Of a stretch of 64,000 bases of DNA, positions 473 through 12,057 are shown piece by piece. Below the pieces are notes generated by a model. It was not told the DNA's origin. It did not search any database and saw only the letters and a list, made by a program, of their open reading frames with translations. Position numbers and translations under genes: made by a program. The stretch comes from an uncultured SAR116 cluster alpha proteobacterium (GTDB lineage Bacteria; Pseudomonadota; Alphaproteobacteria; Puniceispirillales; Marisalimonadaceae), in NCBI GenBank assembly GCA_902615025.1, contig CACMNV010000001.1, positions 124,001-188,000 on the forward strand, given 5' to 3'. The stretch's first letter is position 1; each line of letters opens with the position of its first letter.

Positions 473-1300
473 TTAAAGTCTTTTTACTAATATTTCATCA
501 CAGTGAGATCCAAATAGTCCAAAGAATCTATTTTTTTTGTAAAAAGTTTTAACTATTTTAAAACCTTTCTCCTTAAGTAAAAGTTGCAAATAATTAAAAT
601 CTATAGATTCATATGGATATCCTCCTAGCCAGTCATGAATATCATAATGCCACTCCATACCTCTATTTTTTTTATAATTTTTTATATATGTTATTGGATT
701 TCTAGCTTGTAGTAATAAGGCTAAAATTAATATCAACTTAAATAAACTTCTGATAAGTTTCTGAAAAATTTTTGGAGATTTGACATAAATAAGTTTCTCT
801 AATCTCCAAAGTTTACATAAAAAGGTTTTTTGATATAAGGCCACGCATAAATAACCATTTTTTTTTACTAAAGATGTAGCAATGTTTAATGCTTTAAACA
901 TATCTCCTGTATGATGAAGTACGCCCCAACTATAAACTACATCAAATTTTTTAAATGGTTTTTCAATTACATTAAAAATACTTTTATTATAAACTTTCCA
1001 ATTCTTGCTTTTAGTAAATCTCAATAAAACTTCTTTTGAAGTTTGAATACACACTGGATCAATATCTATGCCGTATACACTCTTAGCGCCAAATCTTAGC
1101 GATGTAATTAAATTAATTCCTGATCCACATCCAATATCTAAGAATGTTTTGTTCTTTATAATATTATTTAGACCTAACCTCTCAAAAGCTTTTTGAGAGT
1201 AAATTAAACTATGGTTATCAATTAAACTAGAAAAATTTTTCCAATTTAATCCAAATTCAAAATGACTATCTAATTTTTTTAATTTATTTTTATTATTCAA
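473..1300 (-). CDS. SAM-dependent class I methyltransferase
   Basis: A 275-aa protein with a Rossmann-type SAM-binding motif I, FLDIGCGSGINL, at about residues 53-64. An acidic strand end follows (VYGIDID), then VVYSWGVLHHTG, which resembles motif post-II of small-molecule methyltransferases. A hydrophobic stretch near residues 185-200 may be membrane-associated or a buried helix. It overlaps the upstream aminotransferase by 8 bp and is followed after 2 bp by the asnB-like gene, so it is translated within the polysaccharide operon. A sugar or glycan methyltransferase is the natural inference; the acceptor cannot be read from the sequence. Confidence 0.75.
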   Translation of the reverse strand: MNNKNKLKKLDSHFEFGLNWKNFSSLIDNHSLIYSQKAFERLGLNNIIKNKTFLDIGCGSGINLITSLRFGAKSVYGIDIDPVCIQTSKEVLLRFTKSKNWKVYNKSIFNVIEKPFKKFDVVYSWGVLHHTGDMFKALNIATSLVKKNGYLCVALYQKTFLCKLWRLEKLIYVKSPKIFQKLIRSLFKLILILALLLQARNPITYIKNYKKNRGMEWHYDIHDWLGGYPYESIDFNYLQLLLKEKGFKIVKTFYKKNRFFGLFGSHCDEILVKRL

Positions 1301-2459
1301 TTAACTGACTTAAATGGTTTATTATATAATTTTGTTCCTTTCTCAATAGTCCATTGTATAATGGAAGAGAAATAGTACAATGGTAAGAAGCCCAAGCATT
1401 TGGAAAGTCAGATGGTTTGAATTTATACTTATTTTTATAATATTTTAACATATGCAAAGCATGTGTTGCAGGCCTTGTTGAAATTCCATTAGTTTGTAAA
1501 ACCTCCATAATAGAATTTCTATATTTTAAAATTTTTGAAATTGAATATTTATTTAATTTTTTCTTATATAAAAAACATGGATAACTTTGATAACTATTTT
1601 GATATGTTTGATTATAAATTGGGCTGTCTAAATTTTTTAATTTAGAAAGCCCTATATCATAAAATTTTGCAATTTTTTTTCTTTCATTAATTATTTTTTT
1701 TGCTCTATCCATCTGTAATGAACCCAAAACTGCCTGTATATCTGTCATTCTAAAATTATAACCAGCATAAGGAAAATCAGGCAAAACATAGGGTTTATTA
1801 CTAACATGTCGTCTATAGTCAGATATTTCAGCTCCGTGATCTCTTAAAGATTTGAGCGCCAAAGCTAATTTTTTACTGTTGGTAGTTATCATCCCTCCTT
1901 CTCCAGTAGTAATTGCTTTCCTAGGATGAAAACTAAAACATCCAATATCTCCTAAAGTTCCAACATGTTGACTTTTATATAAAGATCCAAACCCACATGC
2001 TGCATCCTCTATTACAAATAAATTATATTTTTTTGCAATTTGGTTAATTTTGTCCATATTTGCAGGTAGACCAAAAAGATGAACCACTATTATAGCTTTT
2101 GTTTTAGGATTTATTTTTTTTTCTAATTGATTAATATCAATGTTAAATGTATCTAGTTCTATATCACACAAACAAACGTTTCCTCCCAAATGCTCAACTA
2201 CGTTAGCAGATGAAATCCAAGTAAAAGCTGGAACTATGGCTTCATCATTTTGTTTAAATCCAATACTGACTAAAGCTAATTCTAAAGCTGCAGTACATGA
2301 AGTTACAGCAATCGAATACTTCGCTTTTGTAAAATCGCACCACTTTTTTTCAAACTCCTTAACTTTAGGACCTTGCACTAACCAACCATTTTTCAAGGGT
2401 AAATTTACTGAATTAATTTCTTTTTTTGTTAATTTTACTTTAGCAATGGGTATATTCAT
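1293..2459 (-). CDS. DegT/DnrJ/EryC1/StrS family sugar aminotransferase
   Basis: A 388-aa PLP enzyme of fold type I. The Schiff-base lysine is K181 in SFHPRKAITTGEGG, preceded by VIEDAACGFGS with the PLP-contacting Asp. The family converts keto-sugar nucleotides to amino sugars. In this operon it could be the WbpE-like step that aminates the 3-keto intermediate made by the WbpB-like enzyme. However, the SFHPRK...TGEGG motif is closer to aminotransferases of the perosamine/4-amino-sugar type than to WbpE as I recall it, so a role with the neighbouring epimerase is also possible. The gene sits 4 bp downstream of the epimerase and overlaps the methyltransferase. Confidence 0.85.
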   Translation of the reverse strand: MNIPIAKVKLTKKEINSVNLPLKNGWLVQGPKVKEFEKKWCDFTKAKYSIAVTSCTAALELALVSIGFKQNDEAIVPAFTWISSANVVEHLGGNVCLCDIELDTFNIDINQLEKKINPKTKAIIVVHLFGLPANMDKINQIAKKYNLFVIEDAACGFGSLYKSQHVGTLGDIGCFSFHPRKAITTGEGGMITTNSKKLALALKSLRDHGAEISDYRRHVSNKPYVLPDFPYAGYNFRMTDIQAVLGSLQMDRAKKIINERKKIAKFYDIGLSKLKNLDSPIYNQTYQNSYQSYPCFLYKKKLNKYSISKILKYRNSIMEVLQTNGISTRPATHALHMLKYYKNKYKFKPSDFPNAWASYHCTISLPLYNGLLRKEQNYIINHLSQLIE

Positions 2460-2463
2460 TATA

Positions 2464-3441
2464 TTAAATCTTTTCTAATTCAAAAATATTTTGTTTTCTC
2501 CAATCAATAAGTCTCTGCAACCCGTCTTCAAGATTAATTGAAGAAATAAAATTAATATCATTTTGAGCTTTAATTGGACAGCCTATTCTATTTTTAACAA
2601 AAGTGTTTTGATTTCTCTTTTGATAATTTATTGAAAGATTGGCATTTGTAATTTTAAGTATCAATTCAGCTAGTTCTTTCAACGATGTTCTGATGCCAGT
2701 ACCTACATTATAATTCTCATCTGATATATTTGATTTCATAGCACAAATATTTGCCATTGCACAATCCTCAACAGCAATAAAGTCAAATGCTTCACTTCCA
2801 TCTCCTATTATTGTAGGGCTATTCCCCTTATCTATATCATCCAACATTTTCATTATTACGGCTATATAGGCTCCTTTATAATCTTGTCTAGGGCCATATA
2901 CATTCATATATCTTAAACCTACATAATCTAAATTGTAACGGTGGTGATAAGCTCTTAACATGGCTTCACATGCAATTTTGGTAGCTCCATAAAAATTTTT
3001 ATTATTAAACCTGTGGTTTTCATCCATTGGCTCATAATCAGCATCTCCATAAACAGAAGCAGATGAGGAATATACTAGTTTTTTTATATTTTGTTTTACA
3101 CACGCCTCCATTACATTAAATGTACCTTTTATGTTCACATCAAATGCACTTCGAGGGAATTCATGACATTGAAGTAACCATAAAGCAGCAAAGTGGAAAA
3201 CACCATCGTATCCTTTTAAAGCAGAATTTAAAATATCTACCTGCAATATATCACCTCCGATATCATAGATTTTTACTCTAGGGTCTTTTAAGGCATTTCT
3301 TATGTTCTCGTAATTTCCTCTTACAAAATTATCATAAATCAAAATTTCTTTAACATCCTCTTTTAATAATTTATCAATTGTATGAGAACCAATTAAACCC
3401 GCACCACCAATTACAACAAATTTTTTTCCAAAAAATTCCAT
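2464..3441 (-). CDS. NAD-dependent epimerase/dehydratase (extended SDR)
   Basis: A 325-aa protein with an N-terminal NAD-binding GGAGLIGSH motif (residues 13-21), FHFAALWLLQ in the middle, SSSASVYGD, and the catalytic YxxxK as YGATK. The C-terminal half contains RYMNVYGPRQ and VEDCAMANI, as in nucleotide-sugar epimerases. It starts directly after the acetyltransferase stop (no gap) and is followed after 4 bp by the DegT aminotransferase. It probably acts on a UDP- or GDP-linked sugar for the surface polysaccharide. Whether it epimerises at C4 or C2 or dehydrates cannot be told from these motifs. Confidence 0.85.
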   Translation of the reverse strand: MEFFGKKFVVIGGAGLIGSHTIDKLLKEDVKEILIYDNFVRGNYENIRNALKDPRVKIYDIGGDILQVDILNSALKGYDGVFHFAALWLLQCHEFPRSAFDVNIKGTFNVMEACVKQNIKKLVYSSSASVYGDADYEPMDENHRFNNKNFYGATKIACEAMLRAYHHRYNLDYVGLRYMNVYGPRQDYKGAYIAVIMKMLDDIDKGNSPTIIGDGSEAFDFIAVEDCAMANICAMKSNISDENYNVGTGIRTSLKELAELILKITNANLSINYQKRNQNTFVKNRIGCPIKAQNDINFISSINLEDGLQRLIDWRKQNIFELEKI

Positions 3442-4023
3442 TTAACTGCCAATCATTTCACAATTTCCATTCACCAATTTATAAACCATACCTGATGATT
3501 TACAAGTTGTCTTTCCATTACCGTGCAATGGCAAATCTAACTTGTATCCATCTTTACTCATCCAACCAATTTGTTTTGCAGGAGAACCAACCGCAAGCAC
3601 ATAAGGTTTTAAATCATTTACAACTACAGCACCTGCACCAATAAATGCATATTTACCAATTTTAGTTCCACATACTATTGTGCAATTGGCTCCAAGAGTT
3701 ACTCCGTCAGAAATAACTGTTTTCTTAAAGTCCTTATTTCTACTAATATGACTTCTTGGATTTAAAACATTGGTAAATACCATACTTGGCCCACAAAATA
3801 CATCATTACCGATCTCGACACCTTCATAGATACTTACATTATTTTGAATCTTACAGTTGTTTCCTATTCTCACATTATTAGCTACGTAAACATTCTGACC
3901 CAATTTACAATGATTTCCAATTATTGCTTTTTTAGAAACATGTGTCCAATGCCAAATAACAGTCCCACTTCCTATAATAGCACCTTCATCGATAATAGCA
4001 GACTTATGAATTATGTTTTTCAT
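3442..4023 (-). CDS. wbpD: Hexapeptide-repeat acyltransferase, WbpD/WlbB-like
   Basis: A 193-aa left-handed beta-helix protein. Repeats of the [LIV]GxxxxI type ([50 protein letters not shown]) cover about residues 10-150, and NPRSHISR matches the loop of WbpD-type N-acetyltransferases. WbpD acetylates UDP-2-acetamido-3-amino-glucuronate at the 3-amino group. The gene follows the WbpB-like gene with a 4-bp overlap, the classic wbpB-wbpD pairing, which makes the assignment more secure. The C-terminal tail ([19 protein letters not shown]) also looks typical of the family. Confidence 0.8.
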
Positions 4024-4985
4024 TTTATGCTTTTTAAAAAAGGATGATAATCATTTGCTAAAGAGGATATTTTACAGTCTCTAATTTTTGAAATAGTTTC
4101 TATAGTTTCAATATTGTCTTTTATGTCAAATCCATTTCCTTGAAGTATTTCTTCGTAACTTTTAATGTGAAGATTGTTAAAACCTTCTGAGAATTCCATT
4201 TCATCTCCATTAATTACTATAGACCTATGGGTTGATTGATTTTGTTTTTTAGAAACTTCAGGAAGATCATTATAATCTATAGATAAAAACCATTTAACGT
4301 TAGCTTTTTCCAATTGTAAGAAACCAGATTGTTTATTGTGTGATTTGAGATAAACTTTTACATTTATTGTTCTACCAAATAAATAATGAAGCATATCAAA
4401 AAAATGAACACCTATATTTGAAGCAATACCACCAGATTTTTCTTCATCACCCTTCCAACTTTGATTATACCAACTGCCTCTTGATGTTATATAAGTTAAT
4501 GTTATGTCAGAAATCTTAGAAGATTTAGATTTTAAAATTTGGTGTTTTAAATTTACAATCTTGCTATGATGTCTTAATTGTAAAATCGTATTAATTTTTT
4601 TTCCAGTTTTTTCTTGAAGAAGAATTAGTGGCTCCAAATTCCACAAATTTAGAACTAATGGCTTTTCACAAATTGCATGTAAGCCTGACCTCAAAGCAAA
4701 CCTAATATGACTATCATGTAAATAATTAGGGGTGCAAATTGACAAATAATCAATTTTATTTTTCATATTTGATAACTTGTGTATATGTCTATCATATCTT
4801 TCAAATTCATTAAAATATAAGGCGTCTTTAAAATATTTATCTAATATTCCAACAGAGTCGTTTGGATCAAATGACGAAATTAGTATATTATTAGTTTTTT
4901 TTATTGCCTCTAAATGCTTTGGTGCAATATAGCCAGCAATACCCATTAATGAAAATTTATTAACTTTTGATTTCATAGACTCCAA
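4020..4985 (-). CDS. wbpB: Gfo/Idh/MocA oxidoreductase, WbpB/WlbA-like
   Basis: A 321-aa protein. It opens with a variant dinucleotide-binding motif ([11 protein letters not shown]) and continues with [13 protein letters not shown] and [10 protein letters not shown], where E-K-P contains the conserved active-site lysine of the Gfo/Idh/MocA family. [19 protein letters not shown] marks the second domain. The pattern closely follows WlbA/WbpB, which oxidise the 3-OH of UDP-GlcNAcA. It overlaps the wbpA-like gene by 13 bp and the wbpD-like gene by 4 bp, so the three encode consecutive pathway steps in pathway order. Confidence 0.85.
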
Positions 4986-6259
4986 TAACGAAAACCAGAT
5001 TTGATAATTTCTTTTTTTGAGTAAGCAGATTTAATATCAACAAAAAGACCAAATTTTTTCATTTTTTTTAAAATCTTTAAAGGTTTCATTTTTAAGTAAA
5101 ATTCATGAGATACAGCAGCAATTATAACATCTTGCTGTTTAATTTTGTCCCAATCACTCAACTTGTATCCAAACTTTTTTGCTTCAACTTTATTAACTAA
5201 TGGATCATGGATTGAAATATTGCATCCAAATTCTGTTAATTCGTTAATAAGATCCATAACTTTAGAATTTCTTAAATCAGAACAATTCTCTTTGAAAGAA
5301 ATACCTAATATTAAAAGTTTTGTTTCGTGTATATTTTTTTTTAAACTTATTATTTTTTTTATTACTTCTTTACATATGAAACCAGCCATGCCGTCATTAA
5401 CACGTCTTCCAGCTAATATTAAATGTGGATGATAACCTTCTCTCTCTGCTTTGTATGTTAGATAATAAGGATCTACACCAATACAGTGCCCACCAACTAA
5501 TCCTGGCTTAAATTTTAAAAAATTCCATTTAGTAGATGCTATGTCTAGAACATCTTTGGTATCTATATTTAAATATTTGAAAGTCATGGCAAACTCGTTC
5601 ATTAAAGCTATATTTAAATCTCTTTGAGTATTTTCAATTACTTTCGCCGCCTCAGCTACTTTTATTGAACTTGCCTTGACAACTCCAGCCTCGATAATGG
5701 AACAATATAGTTCGCTGACAATTTTCATTGTTTTATTAGTATCTGCTGAAATAACTTTTGTTATCTTTGTTAATTTTCTTTCTTTATCACCAGGATTTAT
5801 TCTTTCTGGTGAATAAGCAACATTAAAATCTTTAAACCATTTTAAATTTGAAGTTTTTTCAAGAATTGGAACACAAATCTCTTCAGTCGCACCAGGAAAA
5901 ACAGTTGGTTCAAAAATCACAATAGAATCTTTTTTTAGGAATTTACCTATTAATTTACAAGAATTTTTTAATGCGGACAAATCTGGAACATTTGATTTGT
6001 CAACCGGAGTAGGAACTGAAACAATAAAAATATTAACACCCTTCAAAATTTTTTCTTCATTTGAAAATTGCACATATTTTGCTTTTTTAAATTCTAAACG
6101 TGTTACCTCATTAGCTAAATCAATATTATCTATGTAACTATTAATTTTTTCTTTTGATATATCAAAACCAAAAGTTTTATATTTTTGTCCAAATGCTAAA
6201 CATAATGGTAAACCAACATATCCAAGACCAACAATACCTAAAATATATTTATCTTTCAT
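4973..6259 (-). CDS. wbpA: UDP-N-acetyl-D-glucosamine 6-dehydrogenase, WbpA-like
   Basis: A 428-aa nucleotide-sugar dehydrogenase. It has N-terminal GIVGLGYVGLPLC (NAD binding), SVPTPVD, YSPERINPGD, and the catalytic cysteine C259 in GGHCIGVDPYYL. ISFKENCSDLRNSKV marks the C-terminal UDP-binding domain. These enzymes oxidise C6 of UDP-GlcNAc (or UDP-ManNAc) twice to the uronic acid using two NAD+. The adjacent WbpB- and WbpD-like genes favour UDP-GlcNAc as substrate, feeding UDP-2,3-diacetamido uronic acid synthesis. It overlaps its neighbours on both sides by 11-13 bp. Confidence 0.88.
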   Translation of the reverse strand: MKDKYILGIVGLGYVGLPLCLAFGQKYKTFGFDISKEKINSYIDNIDLANEVTRLEFKKAKYVQFSNEEKILKGVNIFIVSVPTPVDKSNVPDLSALKNSCKLIGKFLKKDSIVIFEPTVFPGATEEICVPILEKTSNLKWFKDFNVAYSPERINPGDKERKLTKITKVISADTNKTMKIVSELYCSIIEAGVVKASSIKVAEAAKVIENTQRDLNIALMNEFAMTFKYLNIDTKDVLDIASTKWNFLKFKPGLVGGHCIGVDPYYLTYKAEREGYHPHLILAGRRVNDGMAGFICKEVIKKIISLKKNIHETKLLILGISFKENCSDLRNSKVMDLINELTEFGCNISIHDPLVNKVEAKKFGYKLSDWDKIKQQDVIIAAVSHEFYLKMKPLKILKKMKKFGLFVDIKSAYSKKEIIKSGFRYWSL

Positions 6260-7274
6260 TATAATAATCCATATACCAGTTTACAAAATTTTTAATGCCA
6301 TATTTAATATTAGTATTAGGTTTAAATTTAGTTAAACTTTCTAATAACCTTACATCACTAAAAGTCTCTTTTATATCTCCCATTTGCATTCCTAAAAATT
6401 TTTTCTTAGCCTTTTTACCTAAACACAATTCTAATTCACTCACATAATCCATTAAGTTAGTTGGTTTTGAGTTACCAATATTAATTAGTCTCCAAGGTGC
6501 AACGTCAGATATACTATCATTAGTGACACTTTCGAATCTCTTACTAACAACATTTGGTATTTTTTCAATTAATAGTGATATACTTTTTACAATGTCACTA
6601 ACGTAAGTAAAATCTCTTTTCATATCTCCATTATTGTATATTGAAATTTCTTTATCATCTAAGATAGATTTTGTGAACTTATATAGGGCCATATCAGGAC
6701 GCCCCCAAGGGCCATAAACTGTAAAAAATCTAAATACCGTTACTGGAATTTCAAATATATATGAATACGAATGAGACATCACTTCATTTGACTTTTTTGT
6801 AGCTGCATAGAAAGACATTGGTGTATCACTTTTTTGATTTTCAGAAAAAGGCATTGTTTTATTTGAACCATACACAGATGAAGTAGACGAGATTAAAAGA
6901 TGGTCGACTTTAGATTTTTTAGACATCTCTAAAATATTAAAAGTTCCTATTAAATTTGATTTCAAGTAACTTTTTGGATTTTCAATAGAATATCTTACGC
7001 CAGCCTGTGCTGCCAGGTGGATTATTATGCTAGGATCATGTTTTTTAAAAATTTCATTTAAAAGTTTTTCATCCTCCAACATTCCTTGATAAAATTTATA
7101 ATTATTATACTCTTCAAGTATTTTGTTTCTGTCTTTTTTTAAAGAAACTTCATAATAATCTGTCATACCATCTAAGCCAACGACAATAAAACCTAAATCT
7201 AATAATAATTTAGACATATGAAAGCCAATAAAGCCTGCAGATCCTGTTAAAAATATTGTTTTATTAGAAGTCAT
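6249..7274 (-). CDS. UDP-glucuronate 4-epimerase-like NAD-dependent epimerase
   Basis: A 341-aa extended SDR protein. It has GSAGFIGFHMSKLL (NAD binding), the DGMTDYYEVSLKK region, HLAAQAGVRYSIENP, SSTSSVYGSN and the catalytic YAATK. FFTVYGPWGRPDMAL is the signature seen in CapI/LspL-type UDP-glucuronate (or UDP-GlcNAcA) 4-epimerases. In this operon it could convert a UDP-uronic acid to its galacto form. It overlaps the MarR-like regulator gene by 11 bp and wbpA by 11 bp, so it is an early gene of the operon. Confidence 0.85.
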   Translation of the reverse strand: MTSNKTIFLTGSAGFIGFHMSKLLLDLGFIVVGLDGMTDYYEVSLKKDRNKILEEYNNYKFYQGMLEDEKLLNEIFKKHDPSIIIHLAAQAGVRYSIENPKSYLKSNLIGTFNILEMSKKSKVDHLLISSTSSVYGSNKTMPFSENQKSDTPMSFYAATKKSNEVMSHSYSYIFEIPVTVFRFFTVYGPWGRPDMALYKFTKSILDDKEISIYNNGDMKRDFTYVSDIVKSISLLIEKIPNVVSKRFESVTNDSISDVAPWRLINIGNSKPTNLMDYVSELELCLGKKAKKKFLGMQMGDIKETFSDVRLLESLTKFKPNTNIKYGIKNFVNWYMDYYNER

Positions 7275-7638
7275 TTTTTGAAAAATTTATATTTTTCTTA
7301 GCCAACTCAACCTCTTGTTCTAATTCCTTAATTTCGTTACTTAATTCTTCATACTCTTGCATTTTTGTATGTAAAAATTTAGCAGTCAATATTGTCTTTT
7401 CATATATACCTCTAGGTGTCAAAAAATAAGCATATTTTGTTTTCTTTTTGTGTTTACTAAAATTTTTAAATTTTATCATACCTTTTTCTATTAAAGCATT
7501 TATACAATAATAAGCAGAACCATTTGATATACCAACAATTTCAGCTATTTTACGAGTTGTAATTTTAGGATTATTATTTAATAATCTCAAAATTCGAAGT
7601 TTAACTTCTTCTTGAAGCTGATTTCGTTTACTTGCCAT
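7264..7638 (-). CDS. MarR family EPS-associated transcriptional regulator
   Basis: I place the start at the ATG at 7638 (124 aa, MASKRNQLQEEVKLRILRLL). An in-frame ATG at 7701 exists, but starting there would place the ops-like element and an inverted repeat inside the coding sequence and add a 21-residue extension that does not look like the family. A winged helix lies at about residues 10-75 (ITTRKIAEIVGISNGSAYYC is the helix-turn-helix). A C-terminal coiled coil follows (EYEELSNEIKELEQEVELAK). Proteins of this type stand at the head of exopolysaccharide clusters. As first gene of the operon it probably controls its own transcription through the palindrome at 7711-7734 (inference). Confidence 0.82.
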   Translation of the reverse strand: MASKRNQLQEEVKLRILRLLNNNPKITTRKIAEIVGISNGSAYYCINALIEKGMIKFKNFSKHKKKTKYAYFLTPRGIYEKTILTAKFLHTKMQEYEELSNEIKELEQEVELAKKNINFSKNDF

Positions 7639-7655
7639 ATTTATATGAATGTTTA

Positions 7656-7667
7656 TTGCTACCGCAA
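7656..7667 (-). promoter_or_regulatory. ops-like RfaH recruitment element in operon leader
   Basis: The minus strand reads TTGCGGTAGCAA. It contains GCGGTAGC, the core of the E. coli ops element (GGCGGTAGCGT), and can fold into a 4-bp stem with a GGTA loop. In enterobacteria the nontemplate ops strand forms a shorter hairpin that exposes this loop to RfaH. The element lies 18 bp upstream of the first operon gene and about 140 bp from a divergent RfaH-like gene. The match is seen directly; function is inferred. Confidence 0.65.
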
Positions 7668-7680
7668 TGGAATAGTTCCA
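7668..7680. repeat. Short perfect inverted repeat TGGAA-TAG-TTCCA
   Basis: A 5-bp perfect inverted repeat with a 3-base spacer, directly abutting the ops-like element on its upstream side in the operon leader. It could be an operator half-site pair or a small RNA hairpin before the pause site. The meaning is unknown. Confidence 0.5.
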
Positions 7681-7696
7681 TTTACGTTCAAAAATG

Positions 7697-7724
7697 AGCA
7701 TACATGTAATTAACTTTTAGTCAA
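7697..7724 (-). promoter_or_regulatory. Candidate sigma-70 promoter of the polysaccharide operon
   Basis: On the minus strand, TTGACT (7719-7724) is separated by 16 bp from TATGCT (7697-7702). Transcription would start near 7690, about 23 bp before the ops-like element. The -35 box lies within the 9-bp palindrome at 7711-7734, so a repressor bound there would block it. The -10 box is weak. Confidence 0.4.
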
Positions 7725-7780: not shown

Positions 7781-7808
7781 TATTAAATTTATTGCTCAAA
7801 TTTGAATT

Positions 7809-8309
7809 ATGATCTTTAAGAAAAAATGGTACGTTGTTCAGTATAAATCAAATTCTAGAATTAAAGCAATTGTCAACCTTGAGAGACAAAATATTGAAGT
7901 ATTTTGTCCTCTTTTAGAGGTGTCAGGAATATTAAATAATAAATTTGTAAAAAAAAAAACTAACTTGTTTCCTGGGTATTTTTTTATAAGTTTTAATGAA
8001 ACTTTCCCTTGGAGAAAAATTAATTCAACCTATGGTGTTTTAAAAATTATTTGTTTTGGAAAATCACCCTCAACTATTCCTAACGTTATCATAAATAAAA
8101 TTAAAGATGAATGTACTAATGATGTCATAAAAAATAAAGTTAACATAGTCAATGGTGATAGTGTGAGAATAAAAAAAGGGCCATTTTCAAATTTTGTTGG
8201 TCAAGTACTTAAAATTGGAGCAAACAAAAGAATCTGGGTTATACTTGATTTAATGAAAACAACTAAAAACATTTCAACAAATTTAGAAAATCTAATTAAA
8301 TTAACTTAG
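7809..8309 (+). CDS. RfaH-like transcription antitermination protein (NusG family)
   Basis: A 166-aa protein with a NusG N-terminal (NGN) domain over about residues 6-105 (KKWYVVQYKSNSRIKAIVNL, then LFPGYFFISF). A C-terminal KOW domain starts near GDSVRIKKGPFSNFVGQVLK. NusG paralogs of this kind load onto RNA polymerase at ops sites and prevent Rho-dependent arrest in long surface-polysaccharide operons. It is divergent from a nine-gene polysaccharide operon whose leader carries an ops-like core, which supports a specialised RfaH-type role rather than housekeeping NusG. Its stop codon overlaps that of murQ. Confidence 0.85.
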   Translation: MIFKKKWYVVQYKSNSRIKAIVNLERQNIEVFCPLLEVSGILNNKFVKKKTNLFPGYFFISFNETFPWRKINSTYGVLKIICFGKSPSTIPNVIINKIKDECTNDVIKNKVNIVNGDSVRIKKGPFSNFVGQVLKIGANKRIWVILDLMKTTKNISTNLENLIKLT

Positions 8310-9052
8310 TTTATTGATTTATAAAAGGATTCTATTATTTCTTTTCTCTTTTTCAGTTTTTTGTTTAAAGGTTTCAAATGACTCATTAAACCATGCTTTA
8401 CAAAACCAAATTTAACCATAAGTAAAGATGAGATTATATTTAGAGTTACTTTTTGAACTGTACCAGCTTTTAACCTAGTTGAACCTGCTATAATTTCCTC
8501 TTTTGTATTTAAAATTAAGCTTAAATCTGACAATTTTTCAATTTTGCTATTTTTGTTATTACTTATACTTATAGTAAGAGCTTTTTTTTTCTTTGCCTCT
8601 TTTACAACATAACATGTAAATGGGGTGCTCCCACTGGCACTAATCCCAATTATAATGTCTTTATCTGAAATTTTAAGCTTTTTTAATTGATTTTCAGCAT
8701 CTTCAAGATTATCTTCAGAATTTTCAATAGAACTAGTCAAAGCTTTTGTTCTACCAGCAATAATAAAATTAAATCTTCTTTTAGGCCACCCGAAAGTTGG
8801 ATATAATTCTGATCCATCTTGAACTCCTATTCTACCTGAAGTACCAGCACCACAATAAATAATTCGTCCATTTGTATGCTTTTTTAGATGTTTATACATG
8901 ACTTCAATGATTTTATTAATAGTGTTTAATTCCCCATATATTAATTCTAATCCAACAATTTGCTCCTTAATCATTAATTGAATTGCTTTTGTAGTTTCTA
9001 AAAAATCAATCGGTTCTGATTTTGTAAAAGGCAATTCTGTTTTTGATATCAT
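8306..9052 (-). CDS. murQ: N-acetylmuramic acid 6-phosphate etherase (short form)
   Basis: A 248-aa SIS-domain protein. IIYCGAGTSGRIGVQDGSEL contains the conserved SIS loop and the catalytic Glu equivalent to E. coli Glu83. IENSEDNLEDAE covers the region of the second catalytic acid. GISASGSTPFTCYV and AGSTRLKAGTVQK are MurQ signatures. MurQ cleaves the D-lactyl ether of MurNAc-6-P to GlcNAc-6-P in peptidoglycan recycling. E. coli MurQ has 298 residues; here about 50 C-terminal residues are missing after the NKKL element. It is divergent from anmK, the enzyme that makes its substrate. Confidence 0.88.
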   Translation of the reverse strand: MISKTELPFTKSEPIDFLETTKAIQLMIKEQIVGLELIYGELNTINKIIEVMYKHLKKHTNGRIIYCGAGTSGRIGVQDGSELYPTFGWPKRRFNFIIAGRTKALTSSIENSEDNLEDAENQLKKLKISDKDIIIGISASGSTPFTCYVVKEAKKKKALTISISNNKNSKIEKLSDLSLILNTKEEIIAGSTRLKAGTVQKVTLNIISSLLMVKFGFVKHGLMSHLKPLNKKLKKRKEIIESFYKSIN

Positions 9053-9078
9053 TTTATTACTTATATTGTTTTAATTAA

Positions 9079-9084
9079 TATAAT
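9079..9084 (+). promoter_or_regulatory. Candidate -10 box of anmK
   Basis: A perfect TATAAT in the 50-bp gap between murQ and anmK. A transcript would begin near 9091, leaving either a leaderless mRNA (GTG at 9092) or a 12-base leader (ATG at 9104). No good -35 is visible. Confidence 0.4.
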
Positions 9085-9103
9085 AGCATAGGTGAATTTA
9101 AAT

Positions 9104-10201
9104 ATGGGAAAAAAATTTTTCAATATTATTGGTACAATGACCGGAACAAGCATGGATGGAATTGATATTAGTTTGGTATCAACTAATGGTGAAAAGTTAA
9201 CAAGAGGAAATAAAAATTATTTTTATAAATATAAAAACTCTACACGAGATTTTCTTCTCAATTTATCTAAAGAAAAACCATGGTTTATTAAAAAAAACAT
9301 TAAAGAGTTTAATGAAATAATAACCGATGAACATTATATGGCATTACAAAAATCTTCATTTCTTAATTCTGCTGAATTTGTTGGTTTTCATGGACAAACA
9401 ATACACCATAATATTAAAAATAAATTATCAATACAACTGGGATCTCCAAGACTATTAGCAAACAAAATTAATAAAAGTGTAATATCTAAATTTAGAGATA
9501 AAGACATTCGTAATGGCGGTGTTGGTGCACCCTTAGCCCCAATTTATCATAAATTTTTAATAGAAGAGATTCAATTAAAACAACCAGCAGCAATAATAAA
9601 TATTGGGGGAATTTCTAATATTACTTATGTAAATAAAAATAAATTAATTGGATTTGACACAGGGCCTGGAAATAATTTAATGGATCAATTTATGCAATTA
9701 AAAACAAATTTGTATTATGACGAAAATGGAGAGCTTGCATCAAAAGGATTAATATCAAATTTTTTTATAAATCTATTTTTGAAAAATCAATATCTTAAAA
9801 AAGATACTCCTAAATCATTAGATAAACACGATTTTTCAGTTTTTTTTAATGAAATATCAAATGCAAATTTATCAATTGAAGATATAATGGCCACATTACT
9901 AGAATGTACTGTTCTAGGTATAAAAAGTGCAATTAACAAACTACCTCAAAAACCTTATAGTATCATTGTCGTAGGCGGTGGTTATAAAAATAAATTTCTT
10001 TTAAAAAGACTGAAAAATACTTTAAAAATTAAATTAATTTCTCAAGATAAGTTAGACTTTTCTTTTGATTATGTTGAAGCTGAATTAATAGCATTTTTAA
10101 GTGCAAGAGTTATAAATAATTTGGCTACAACTTTTCCAGATACAACTGGCGTAAAAAAACCAATAATAGGTGGAAAAATTTTTTATAAAAATCCTTTTTG
10201 A
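9104..10201 (+). CDS. anmK: Anhydro-N-acetylmuramic acid kinase
   Basis: 365 aa from the ATG at 9104; an in-frame GTG at 9092 would add four residues. It has IIGTMTGTSMDGIDISLV at the N-terminus, VGFHGQTIHHN, DKDIRNGGVGAPLAPIYH, NIGGISNITY, GFDTGPGNNLMD and IVVGGGYKN, the order of motifs in AnmK of the ASKHA kinase fold. The enzyme hydrolyses the 1,6-anhydro ring and phosphorylates it, giving MurNAc-6-P for MurQ. It forms a divergent pair with murQ and overlaps the convergent PIG-L gene by 19 bp. Confidence 0.92.
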   Translation: MGKKFFNIIGTMTGTSMDGIDISLVSTNGEKLTRGNKNYFYKYKNSTRDFLLNLSKEKPWFIKKNIKEFNEIITDEHYMALQKSSFLNSAEFVGFHGQTIHHNIKNKLSIQLGSPRLLANKINKSVISKFRDKDIRNGGVGAPLAPIYHKFLIEEIQLKQPAAIINIGGISNITYVNKNKLIGFDTGPGNNLMDQFMQLKTNLYYDENGELASKGLISNFFINLFLKNQYLKKDTPKSLDKHDFSVFFNEISNANLSIEDIMATLLECTVLGIKSAINKLPQKPYSIIVVGGGYKNKFLLKRLKNTLKIKLISQDKLDFSFDYVEAELIAFLSARVINNLATTFPDTTGVKKPIIGGKIFYKNPF

Positions 10202-10872
10202 TTTTTTATGTCAAACATTCTTAATTTAGGTGCAGCTGGAAAAAATTCTTTAACATCACAAAAAGGGAAAGATCTCTCAAAATAATAAGCTTCAGCATAA
10301 CTCCCTTTTGGTGCATTACATTGAGCGGATCTATAAGAATTCATTAACTCTATTAAGTCTAAAAATCTTTTTGGCTGTTGTGTTTTATGAAATGAAACTG
10401 CTTTCTTTTTTTCTTCAAAAACTTTTGTAATATCAACATAGTGTTTTGGTTTAAAATTTACTCCCATCATTGTATCACAGTAAATCACAGGTATAAAATG
10501 CCCTGCAATTTGTGAAACAATTTTTGATAACGTTCTATGATCAGAATGATAATCTTTTTTATAATGTGTAATTATGAAATTAGGTTTAATTTTGGATATA
10601 TATTCATAGATTTTCATTTTATGATTAGTATCATTACCTAATTGACCATCTTTGAAGTTAAAAAAGTAAGGTTCGCCAATTTTATTTAGAGCTTTTTGAC
10701 TTTCTGCTTTCCTTAGATTTACTAAATTCTTGTCAGAATCGTTACCTCCAAGTGATCCATCAGTTGCTATTGCTAAAAAAATTTTATCCCCTCTTTTTTT
10801 TAATAAATATAGTAAGCCATACATGAATATTTCTATGTCGTCAGGATGTGCTCCAATTGCTAAAATTTTCAT
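10183..10872 (-). CDS. PIG-L/LmbE family deacetylase
   Basis: A 229-aa protein opening with MKILAIGAHPDDIEIFMYG; AHPDD supplies zinc ligands and the catalytic Asp. A second zinc motif, YHSDHRTL, lies near residue 120. Members remove acetyl groups from N-acetylglucosaminyl compounds. Placed between anmK and a GH84 hexosaminidase, it may deacetylate GlcNAc or a muropeptide-derived sugar (inference). No nagA appears in the window. The C-terminal region (FPAAPKLRMFDIKNQKG) overlaps the end of anmK on the other strand. Confidence 0.8.
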   Translation of the reverse strand: MKILAIGAHPDDIEIFMYGLLYLLKKRGDKIFLAIATDGSLGGNDSDKNLVNLRKAESQKALNKIGEPYFFNFKDGQLGNDTNHKMKIYEYISKIKPNFIITHYKKDYHSDHRTLSKIVSQIAGHFIPVIYCDTMMGVNFKPKHYVDITKVFEEKKKAVSFHKTQQPKRFLDLIELMNSYRSAQCNAPKGSYAEAYYFERSFPFCDVKEFFPAAPKLRMFDIKNQKGFL

Positions 10873-10908
10873 TTTTCATTATCCTTAAATCTATTATAAA
10901 CAATATAT

Positions 10909-12057
10909 ATGAAAAAACTCTATTTTAAAAAAATTAAAGGTTATATTGAAGGATTTTACGGAAAATTATATTCATGGGACGATAGAATTAATATTTTAGA
11001 TACTATGTCTCAAAATAAAATGAACTTCTACTTTTACTGCCCTAAAGAGGATCTTAAACATAGACAAGAATGGAGAGATCAATATTCAAAAGAATGGCTA
11101 AAAAATTTTCAAGAATTCAATCTTTATGCTAACAAAAAAAATATTAAAGTTATATTTGGTGTATCTCCAGGTTTAGATTTTAATTTTAAATCTTTTTTAG
11201 ATGGGGATAAAAAAGACTTAAATTTTCTTTTATCCAAATTTAATAATTTGATGGCACATGGTGCTACAAATTTTTGTATATTATTCGATGACATACCATA
11301 TAATTCAAATCTACCAAATAAGCTAGAAGGGGTTGCACATGCTAAATTGATAAACACAATTAATTTGAATTTTAATATACCTATTTTTAATGTACCAAGA
11401 ATTTATTCTGACGAATTAAATTACGAGAATCCACAATACATTAAATTTTATTTTAATAATATATTCGAGAAAAGTAATACTTTTTATTGTGGAAAAAATA
11501 TTGTTTCTAAATCTTTCAACACAAGAATAAAAATTATAAAAAACCAATTGAATCAAGATAAACTAATTTTTTGGGATAATTTTTATGCAAATGATTATTG
11601 TCCTAAAAGATTAATTATTGGTCCATGGCAAAATACTTCATTAATAAAAAAATCAATGATAAATGGAACTGGACTTTTAGAAACTGATAAACTTATAATA
11701 CAAATAGTAAACAATACTGGGGATTGTAAAAACAAATTTTTGGAATGGAAAAAAGTGTTAAAAAAAAATAATGTTCCAGATAATTTTTTTTATGTCCATA
11801 AGTTTTTTTTGTCACCTAATTTTAGTTATGAGACTAAACTCAAGAATTTAAAAACTGACAAAAATATATTTAATAATCTGGATTTTCTTTTATGGAAATG
11901 GAAGACTAATTTATCTAGAGAATGGTATCCTTATCTTTTAAATTTGAAGCATGATTTGCAAATAGTGACTGATCAATTATCTTGGAATAGAATTTTAAAA
12001 ACACAAACTAATCCATTTCAAAAAATTTTATTAAATAGGAGAAAACTTGATGATTAA
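10909..12057 (+). CDS. GH84-type beta-N-acetylglucosaminidase
   Basis: A 382-aa protein. GYIEGFYGKLYSWDDR at residues 11-26 is the opening signature of the GH84 (O-GlcNAcase/NagJ) catalytic barrel. YFYCPKEDLKHRQEWRD and FGVSPGLDF follow, then the adjacent catalytic aspartates D127-D128 in CILFDDIP. This fits the substrate-assisted mechanism on N-acetylglucosaminides. There is no signal peptide, so it should act in the cytoplasm. With AnmK, MurQ and AmpG nearby, its likely substrate is GlcNAc-anhydroMurNAc, the job usually done by GH3 NagZ; this is inference. The next gene overlaps it by 11 bp. Confidence 0.82.
   Translation: MKKLYFKKIKGYIEGFYGKLYSWDDRINILDTMSQNKMNFYFYCPKEDLKHRQEWRDQYSKEWLKNFQEFNLYANKKNIKVIFGVSPGLDFNFKSFLDGDKKDLNFLLSKFNNLMAHGATNFCILFDDIPYNSNLPNKLEGVAHAKLINTINLNFNIPIFNVPRIYSDELNYENPQYIKFYFNNIFEKSNTFYCGKNIVSKSFNTRIKIIKNQLNQDKLIFWDNFYANDYCPKRLIIGPWQNTSLIKKSMINGTGLLETDKLIIQIVNNTGDCKNKFLEWKKVLKKNNVPDNFFYVHKFFLSPNFSYETKLKNLKTDKNIFNNLDFLLWKWKTNLSREWYPYLLNLKHDLQIVTDQLSWNRILKTQTNPFQKILLNRRKLDD

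Follow-up and report, generated by a model that had tools for sequence, protein, structure and literature searches.

According to published surveys, how a member of the RfaH group is recruited is understood for E. coli RfaH alone (PMC7593976), and recruitment in the other RfaH groups remains to be studied (PMC7593976; PMC13015549). In E. coli, residues K10, H20, R23 and R73 of RfaH read G5 and T6 of the ops element, with Q24, N70, T72 and G74 nearby (PMC5995543), and RNA polymerase pauses at ops nucleotide 11 (PMC11001881). The JUMPstart stem-loop has been reported only for gammaproteobacteria (PMC2864571). Other NusG paralogs are also known; among them LoaP of Firmicutes needs an RNA hairpin in the dfn leader (PMC12691694), the RfaH cluster CL4 adjoins a helix-turn-helix regulator (Wang 2020), and for monomorphic RfaH an ops-independent recruitment in cis has been proposed (PMC13015549).

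The locus described here lies in a stretch of 64,000 nucleotides (the window) from an AT-rich marine alphaproteobacterium. As in the RfaH/ops system of E. coli and other enterobacteria, the same octamer GCGGTAGC stands in the sense direction in the leader of a long polysaccharide operon, and the NusG paralog keeps the equivalents of K10, R23, Q24, N70, T72 and G74 and has no Rho-contact loop; unlike enterobacterial RfaH, which is a distant single gene, the factor has H20 and R73 replaced and is encoded beside or within the cluster. The stem-loop immediately upstream of ops recalls JUMPstart (RF01707), which is also found in polysaccharide operon leaders, although its stem and loop sequences are unrelated. 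LoaP/dfn likewise combines a NusG paralog, a long operon and a small leader RNA hairpin, but that system has no ops and its hairpin loop is of a conserved UNCG type. The location of the gene within or next to a long operon for the envelope or for polysaccharides is shared with the operon-encoded RfaH-like proteins (groups CL2-CL8 of Wang 2020, monomorphic RfaH, UpxY and TaA); unlike those groups, for which the literature found describes no ops, the window locus keeps a conserved and intact ops core. The open-access literature searched describes ops for RfaH of enterobacteria and other gammaproteobacteria, and a report elsewhere for further groups is possible. Our results suggest that control by ops and RfaH-like factors extends far outside the enteric bacteria.

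The locus and its ops core

The features of the locus are collected in Table 1. Read along the minus strand, the leader begins with TTGACT-(16)-TATGCT, which GCTCATTTTTGAAC overlaps; next comes AATGGAACTATTCCATT, to which GCGGTAGC is joined without a gap, and the ATG of the first gene follows after 19 nt. The earlier note had placed an ops core in the minus-strand leader of a MarR-led operon and a NusG-family, RfaH-like gene across a 170-bp intergenic region; both are where it put them, the two genes starting at 7638 and 7809. Downstream of the regulator gene, the nucleotide-sugar genes encode an epimerase, a UDP-sugar dehydrogenase-like protein, a Gfo/Idh oxidoreductase, an acyltransferase, a second epimerase, an aminotransferase and a methyltransferase, and on the parent contig the same-strand run of polysaccharide genes covers at least 27 kb. 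No obvious Shine-Dalgarno sequence was seen at any of the operon genes checked, so that its absence at the first gene is uninformative.

Table 1. Positions of the features of the locus, numbered from the first letter of the window
Feature	Position	Strand	Remarks
RfaH-like NusG paralog, 166 aa	7809-8309	+	divergent; E. coli RfaH, phmmer 1e-14; TIGR01955; PF02357
Operator-like dyad GCTCAAATTTGAAT	7794-7807	+	immediately ahead of the rfaH-like start; deviates from the operator pattern by one letter
Inferred sigma70-type promoter, TTGACT (7719-7724), 16-bp spacer, TATGCT (7697-7702)	7697-7724	-	read from sequence
Candidate MarR_EPS operator GCTCATTTTTGAAC	7686-7699	-	overlaps the inferred -10 box
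RNA hairpin AATGGAA-CTA-TTCCATT	7666-7682	-	ends directly at the octamer; JUMPstart-like position
Ops core GCGGTAGC	7658-7665	-	19 nt ahead of the MarR_EPS ATG
9-mer TGCGGTAGC, octamer plus preceding T (7666)	7658-7666	-	present in nearly all alphaproteobacterial leaders
TTGCGGTAGCAA, extended DNA stem proposed earlier	7656-7667	-	outer pairs vary in relatives
MarR_EPS family regulator (TIGR04176), first operon gene	7264-7638	-	ATG 7636-7638
Nucleotide-sugar genes downstream of MarR_EPS	473-7274	-	run extends past the window start
Amino-sugar salvage group	8306-12057		adjoins the rfaH-like gene

The form present in the window, TGCGGTAGCAAT, carries the ops core in the sense strand of the leader of a long operon; it differs from the full 12-nt enteric ops, which starts with GG and ends with GTG, by having a T before the core and no GTG after it. 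The octamer occurs once in the 64-kb window, where shuffled sequences average 0.05 copies. It had been argued that so GC-rich an octamer would be rare by chance in an AT-rich genome; however, the whole genome holds seven copies against five for the reversed control pattern, the remaining six copies of the octamer all being within long reading frames. Its rarity is thus weak evidence, and, there being no real genome-wide enrichment, octamer counts are useless without placement. What sets the window copy apart is its placement together with its conservation in relatives. The four-pair DNA stem TTGC/GCAA that had also been proposed can be drawn on paper, but relatives do not keep its outer pairs, and we rejected it as a meaningful feature; for the transcription complex, published support covers the C3:G8 pair only (PMC5995543).

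Conservation of the octamer in relatives

Within the family we listed all TGCGGTAGC sites in 58 genomes, which are incomplete and related to one another, and classed them as coding or not. MarR_EPS is an accessory gene, present in 4 of the 58, and TGCGGTAGC lies just upstream of it in all four. An RfaH-like paralog distinct from NusG was found in 11 of the 58 genomes; these hold 38 TGCGGTAGC sites, eight of which are leader sites, spread over 8 of the 11 genomes. By comparison, the paralog-less genomes hold 106 sites, of which only 2 are intergenic (Fisher p = 0.0004, a value which is optimistic given that the genomes are related and incomplete), and one of those two exceptions, in a 62%-complete genome, heads a polysaccharide operon and has a hairpin ahead of the site. 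At four of the eight leader sites MarR_EPS is absent, and each of these four leads a long run of polysaccharide genes; the ops site is therefore not tied to the MarR_EPS gene. One genome (G015) has a same-strand run of about 39 kb with ops at its head and the rfaH-like gene at its tail, and in another (G021) the run downstream of ops is about 38 kb. A leader octamer was not found in three paralog-bearing family genomes (G004, G007 and G032), perhaps due to missing contigs.

The signal extends beyond the family. A class-level search yielded seven further true MarR_EPS loci, six of them with the octamer. A scan of named genomes using a five-member alignment returned 80 loci from alpha-, beta- and gammaproteobacteria and from a few bacteria of other groups; 33 of the 78 proteobacterial ones have the octamer no more than 130 nt upstream of MarR_EPS, where shuffles predict 0.06, and in the same upstream region neither the octamer on the other strand nor the reversed pattern was found at any of the 78. 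More than half of the named loci have no octamer; it is commoner near an RfaH-like gene (14/34 vs 6/43, p = 0.009). The divergent layout of rfaH-like gene and ops-MarR_EPS operon recurs in GC-rich Minwuia and Kordiimonadales loci, and several betaproteobacterial leaders have the enteric form GGCGGTAGCGTG.

The earlier note would have given up its reading had the octamer been absent from, or randomly placed in, related genomes. Our results clearly showed the opposite, in sense orientation only, at MarR_EPS genes and at the heads of MarR-less operons alike, and this placement supports its proposal that an AT-rich alphaproteobacterium has an RfaH/ops circuit whose factor is encoded beside the target. 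A chance octamer would be in line with the six meaningless copies inside genes; however, with the octamer at 4/4 family loci and 33/78 named loci, on one strand and against an expectation of 0.06, strand-specific conservation refutes this explanation, to which we give practically no credence.

Two further observations concern variants of these leaders. Four loci with weak MarR matches (L032, L036, L038 and L039) have GCGGTAGC after hairpins of the TTCACCC type, such as GGGTGA..TCACCC. About 60 nt upstream of position 4001 at L177, a close MarR_EPS relative, the expected place is taken by ATGCGGCAGCTATG, a form of the octamer in which C replaces T6 and which may be an ops that has decayed or been altered.

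The leader hairpin and the RfaH-like factor

A feature absent from the earlier note is an RNA hairpin that abuts the octamer. The 38-nt fold in the window has a predicted energy of -7.9 kcal/mol, compared with -3.1 in shuffles. A single MAFFT alignment of the leaders failed on hairpins with unequal loop lengths, and each stem was therefore tested singly against shuffles and against in-gene octamers. The 39 non-redundant leaders fold below their shuffles (mean z -1.16, Stouffer -7.3), and in 37 of them no more than 4 nt separate the stem end from the octamer, where 22 are expected from shuffles, giving the JUMPstart layout of a stem-loop directly upstream of ops; 29 in-gene octamers from paralog-less genomes gave no hairpin signal (mean z +0.11; stem end at that distance in 13, with 12.5 expected). 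The hairpin is thus conserved in position, whereas the sequence of stem and loop differs from species to species, and the Rfam model RF01707 found no match, either at E 1 (16 loci) or at E 5 (9 loci). Near relatives display paired changes, noted by eye and without a covariation statistic, such as ACGG/CCGT vs ACAG/CTGT, GGGA/TCCC vs GTGA/TCAC and CACCG/CGGTG vs CACCA/TGGTG. If the polymerase pauses at ops nucleotide 11 as in E. coli, the stem would end 10-12 nt behind the RNA end, and we infer that the hairpin stabilises the ops pause.

In the case of the factor, its best solved relative is E. coli RfaH. Its score against the TIGR01955 (RfaH) model, 97.2 bits, is below the curated cut-off of 144.5, and for that reason we call it RfaH-like and not RfaH; the NGN domain (PF02357) exceeds its cut-off and the KOW domain falls slightly short (20.2 vs 22.3). 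The same genome encodes an ordinary NusG separately, which has the Rho-contact loop IFG, and the RfaH-like factor has LMK at that place. No relative of the factor was found in viral contigs. For the earlier proposal to stand, the NGN domain needed an ops-binding surface, and modelling of that domain had been suggested: the model can be laid over the crystal structure of RfaH:ops with a deviation of 1.8 A across 95 columns. A plausible ops surface is present, since the equivalents listed above are retained; of the four residues that contact bases in E. coli, however, two are replaced, H20 by N and R73 by Y. Among 31 relatives Q24, T72 and G74 are invariant and K10 is nearly so, and in the alphaproteobacterial relatives position 20 is mostly N and position 73 mostly Y. 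RfaH is autoinhibited, with an alpha-helical KOW that switches fold. E48 of RfaH is not kept in the window factor; AlphaFold2 predicted a beta KOW for it, but did so too for L219, a protein run for comparison with the same sequences.

The hairpin and the replaced residues bear on whether the element acts as DNA or as RNA. The RfaH-like protein might bind the nascent hairpin, perhaps with the octamer RNA, instead of a non-template DNA loop; the replacement of the DNA-contact residues H20 and R73, the hairpin abutting the octamer in 37/39 leaders and the precedent of LoaP would all suit such a mode of action. Nevertheless, hairpin sequence and loop vary, unlike the UNCG hairpin of LoaP, and the invariant part is the octamer, a sequence that E. 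coli RfaH reads in the form of DNA, so that we consider binding to RNA unlikely.

It could also be that octamer and hairpin form an intrinsic pause signal, serving ribosome loading or NusG-dependent pausing, with no dedicated factor involved. The ops sequence fits the consensus pause (PMC7819879), the stem is at pause-hairpin distance (PMC11001881), and at many MarR_EPS loci with the octamer the flanking DNA examined contains no RfaH-like gene; on the other hand, leader octamers track the paralog within the family, the named loci show the association with RfaH-like genes given above, and a consensus pause, whose central region is described as variable (PMC5995543), does not require the central GGTA that is invariant here. 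A pause without a dedicated factor is thus quite improbable in our view.

Probable MarR_EPS control and a proposed sequence of events

The first gene of the operon scored 130.6 bits against TIGR04176 (cut-off 88) and thus belongs to the MarR_EPS family, for which a literature search on the family name found no study. Upstream of MarR_EPS, the palindrome GYTCA-N3..6-TGARC is present at 58 of 88 loci, with 0.23 expected (for instance L009-L018 and L176-L255), making it a strong candidate for the MarR_EPS operator, a second feature that the earlier note did not contain. As the near-copy GCTCAAATTTGAAT precedes the start of the rfaH-like gene, MarR_EPS may control both the factor and the operon.

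The octamer stands just ahead of the MarR_EPS gene and might for that reason be taken for the binding site of the regulator. It is, however, strand-specific and not a full palindrome, it is also found at operons with no MarR_EPS, and the separate palindrome is a far better operator candidate; the octamer as MarR operator was accordingly rejected, and the likelihood we leave to it is negligible.

The explanation that we favour, with a probability of about 0.8, is that the GCGGTAGC leader is an ops-type recruitment site for the neighbouring RfaH-like antiterminator, under additional MarR_EPS control through the operator. MarR_EPS would set initiation separately, by way of the GYTCA-N-TGARC operator, and RNA polymerase would start a few tens of nucleotides upstream of ops. 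While TGCGGTAGC is being copied, the RNA hairpin would fold directly behind the polymerase, which would pause; the NGN domain of the RfaH-like factor could then read the GGTA loop of the exposed non-template strand. Once loaded, the factor would presumably stay on RNA polymerase, excluding or displacing NusG, and carry it through the polysaccharide operon of at least 27 kb. Counting against the ops/RfaH-like reading are the replacement of H20 and R73, the score under the TIGR01955 cut-off, the three paralog-bearing genomes with no leader octamer and the lack of the octamer at more than half of the named loci.

A bolder version, which is possible but tentative and to which we give rather less than even odds, sees a composite signal in which a hairpin-stabilised pause is fused to ops and acted on by a factor lacking R73 and H20 (and possibly autoinhibition), encoded beside the operon or at its far end, with the same MarR_EPS repressor. 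Were this true, a two-step lock on surface polysaccharide clusters would be widespread in proteobacteria, with MarR acting at the promoter and the RfaH-like factor at ops, and the ops core would be independent of the recognition residues defined in E. coli.

The favoured recruitment reading has consequences of its own. With the ops core conserved in alpha-, beta- and some gammaproteobacteria, next to an RNA hairpin of conserved position and together with a factor that differs in its recognition residues, recruitment in these groups becomes directly testable, and the findings bear on the age of the ops signal and on the purpose of the JUMPstart hairpin. They also offer a simple rule by which long, regulated operons for surface polysaccharides can be located from sequence in uncultured marine bacteria, and supply the MarR_EPS family with a candidate operator.

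The neighbourhood of the rfaH-like gene deserves description as well. The salvage group adjoining it in the window comprises genes for a MurNAc-6-P etherase, AnmK, a deacetylase-like protein and a beta-N-acetylglucosaminidase-family protein. Several family genomes (L168, L169, L170, L173, L174 and L175) have the rfaH-like gene at one conserved place, where its neighbour is a dihydroorotase-like gene; three of these genomes also have a gene for a WecA-like glycosyltransferase beside it, and at that conserved place the rfaH-like gene is sometimes the tail of a polysaccharide cluster.
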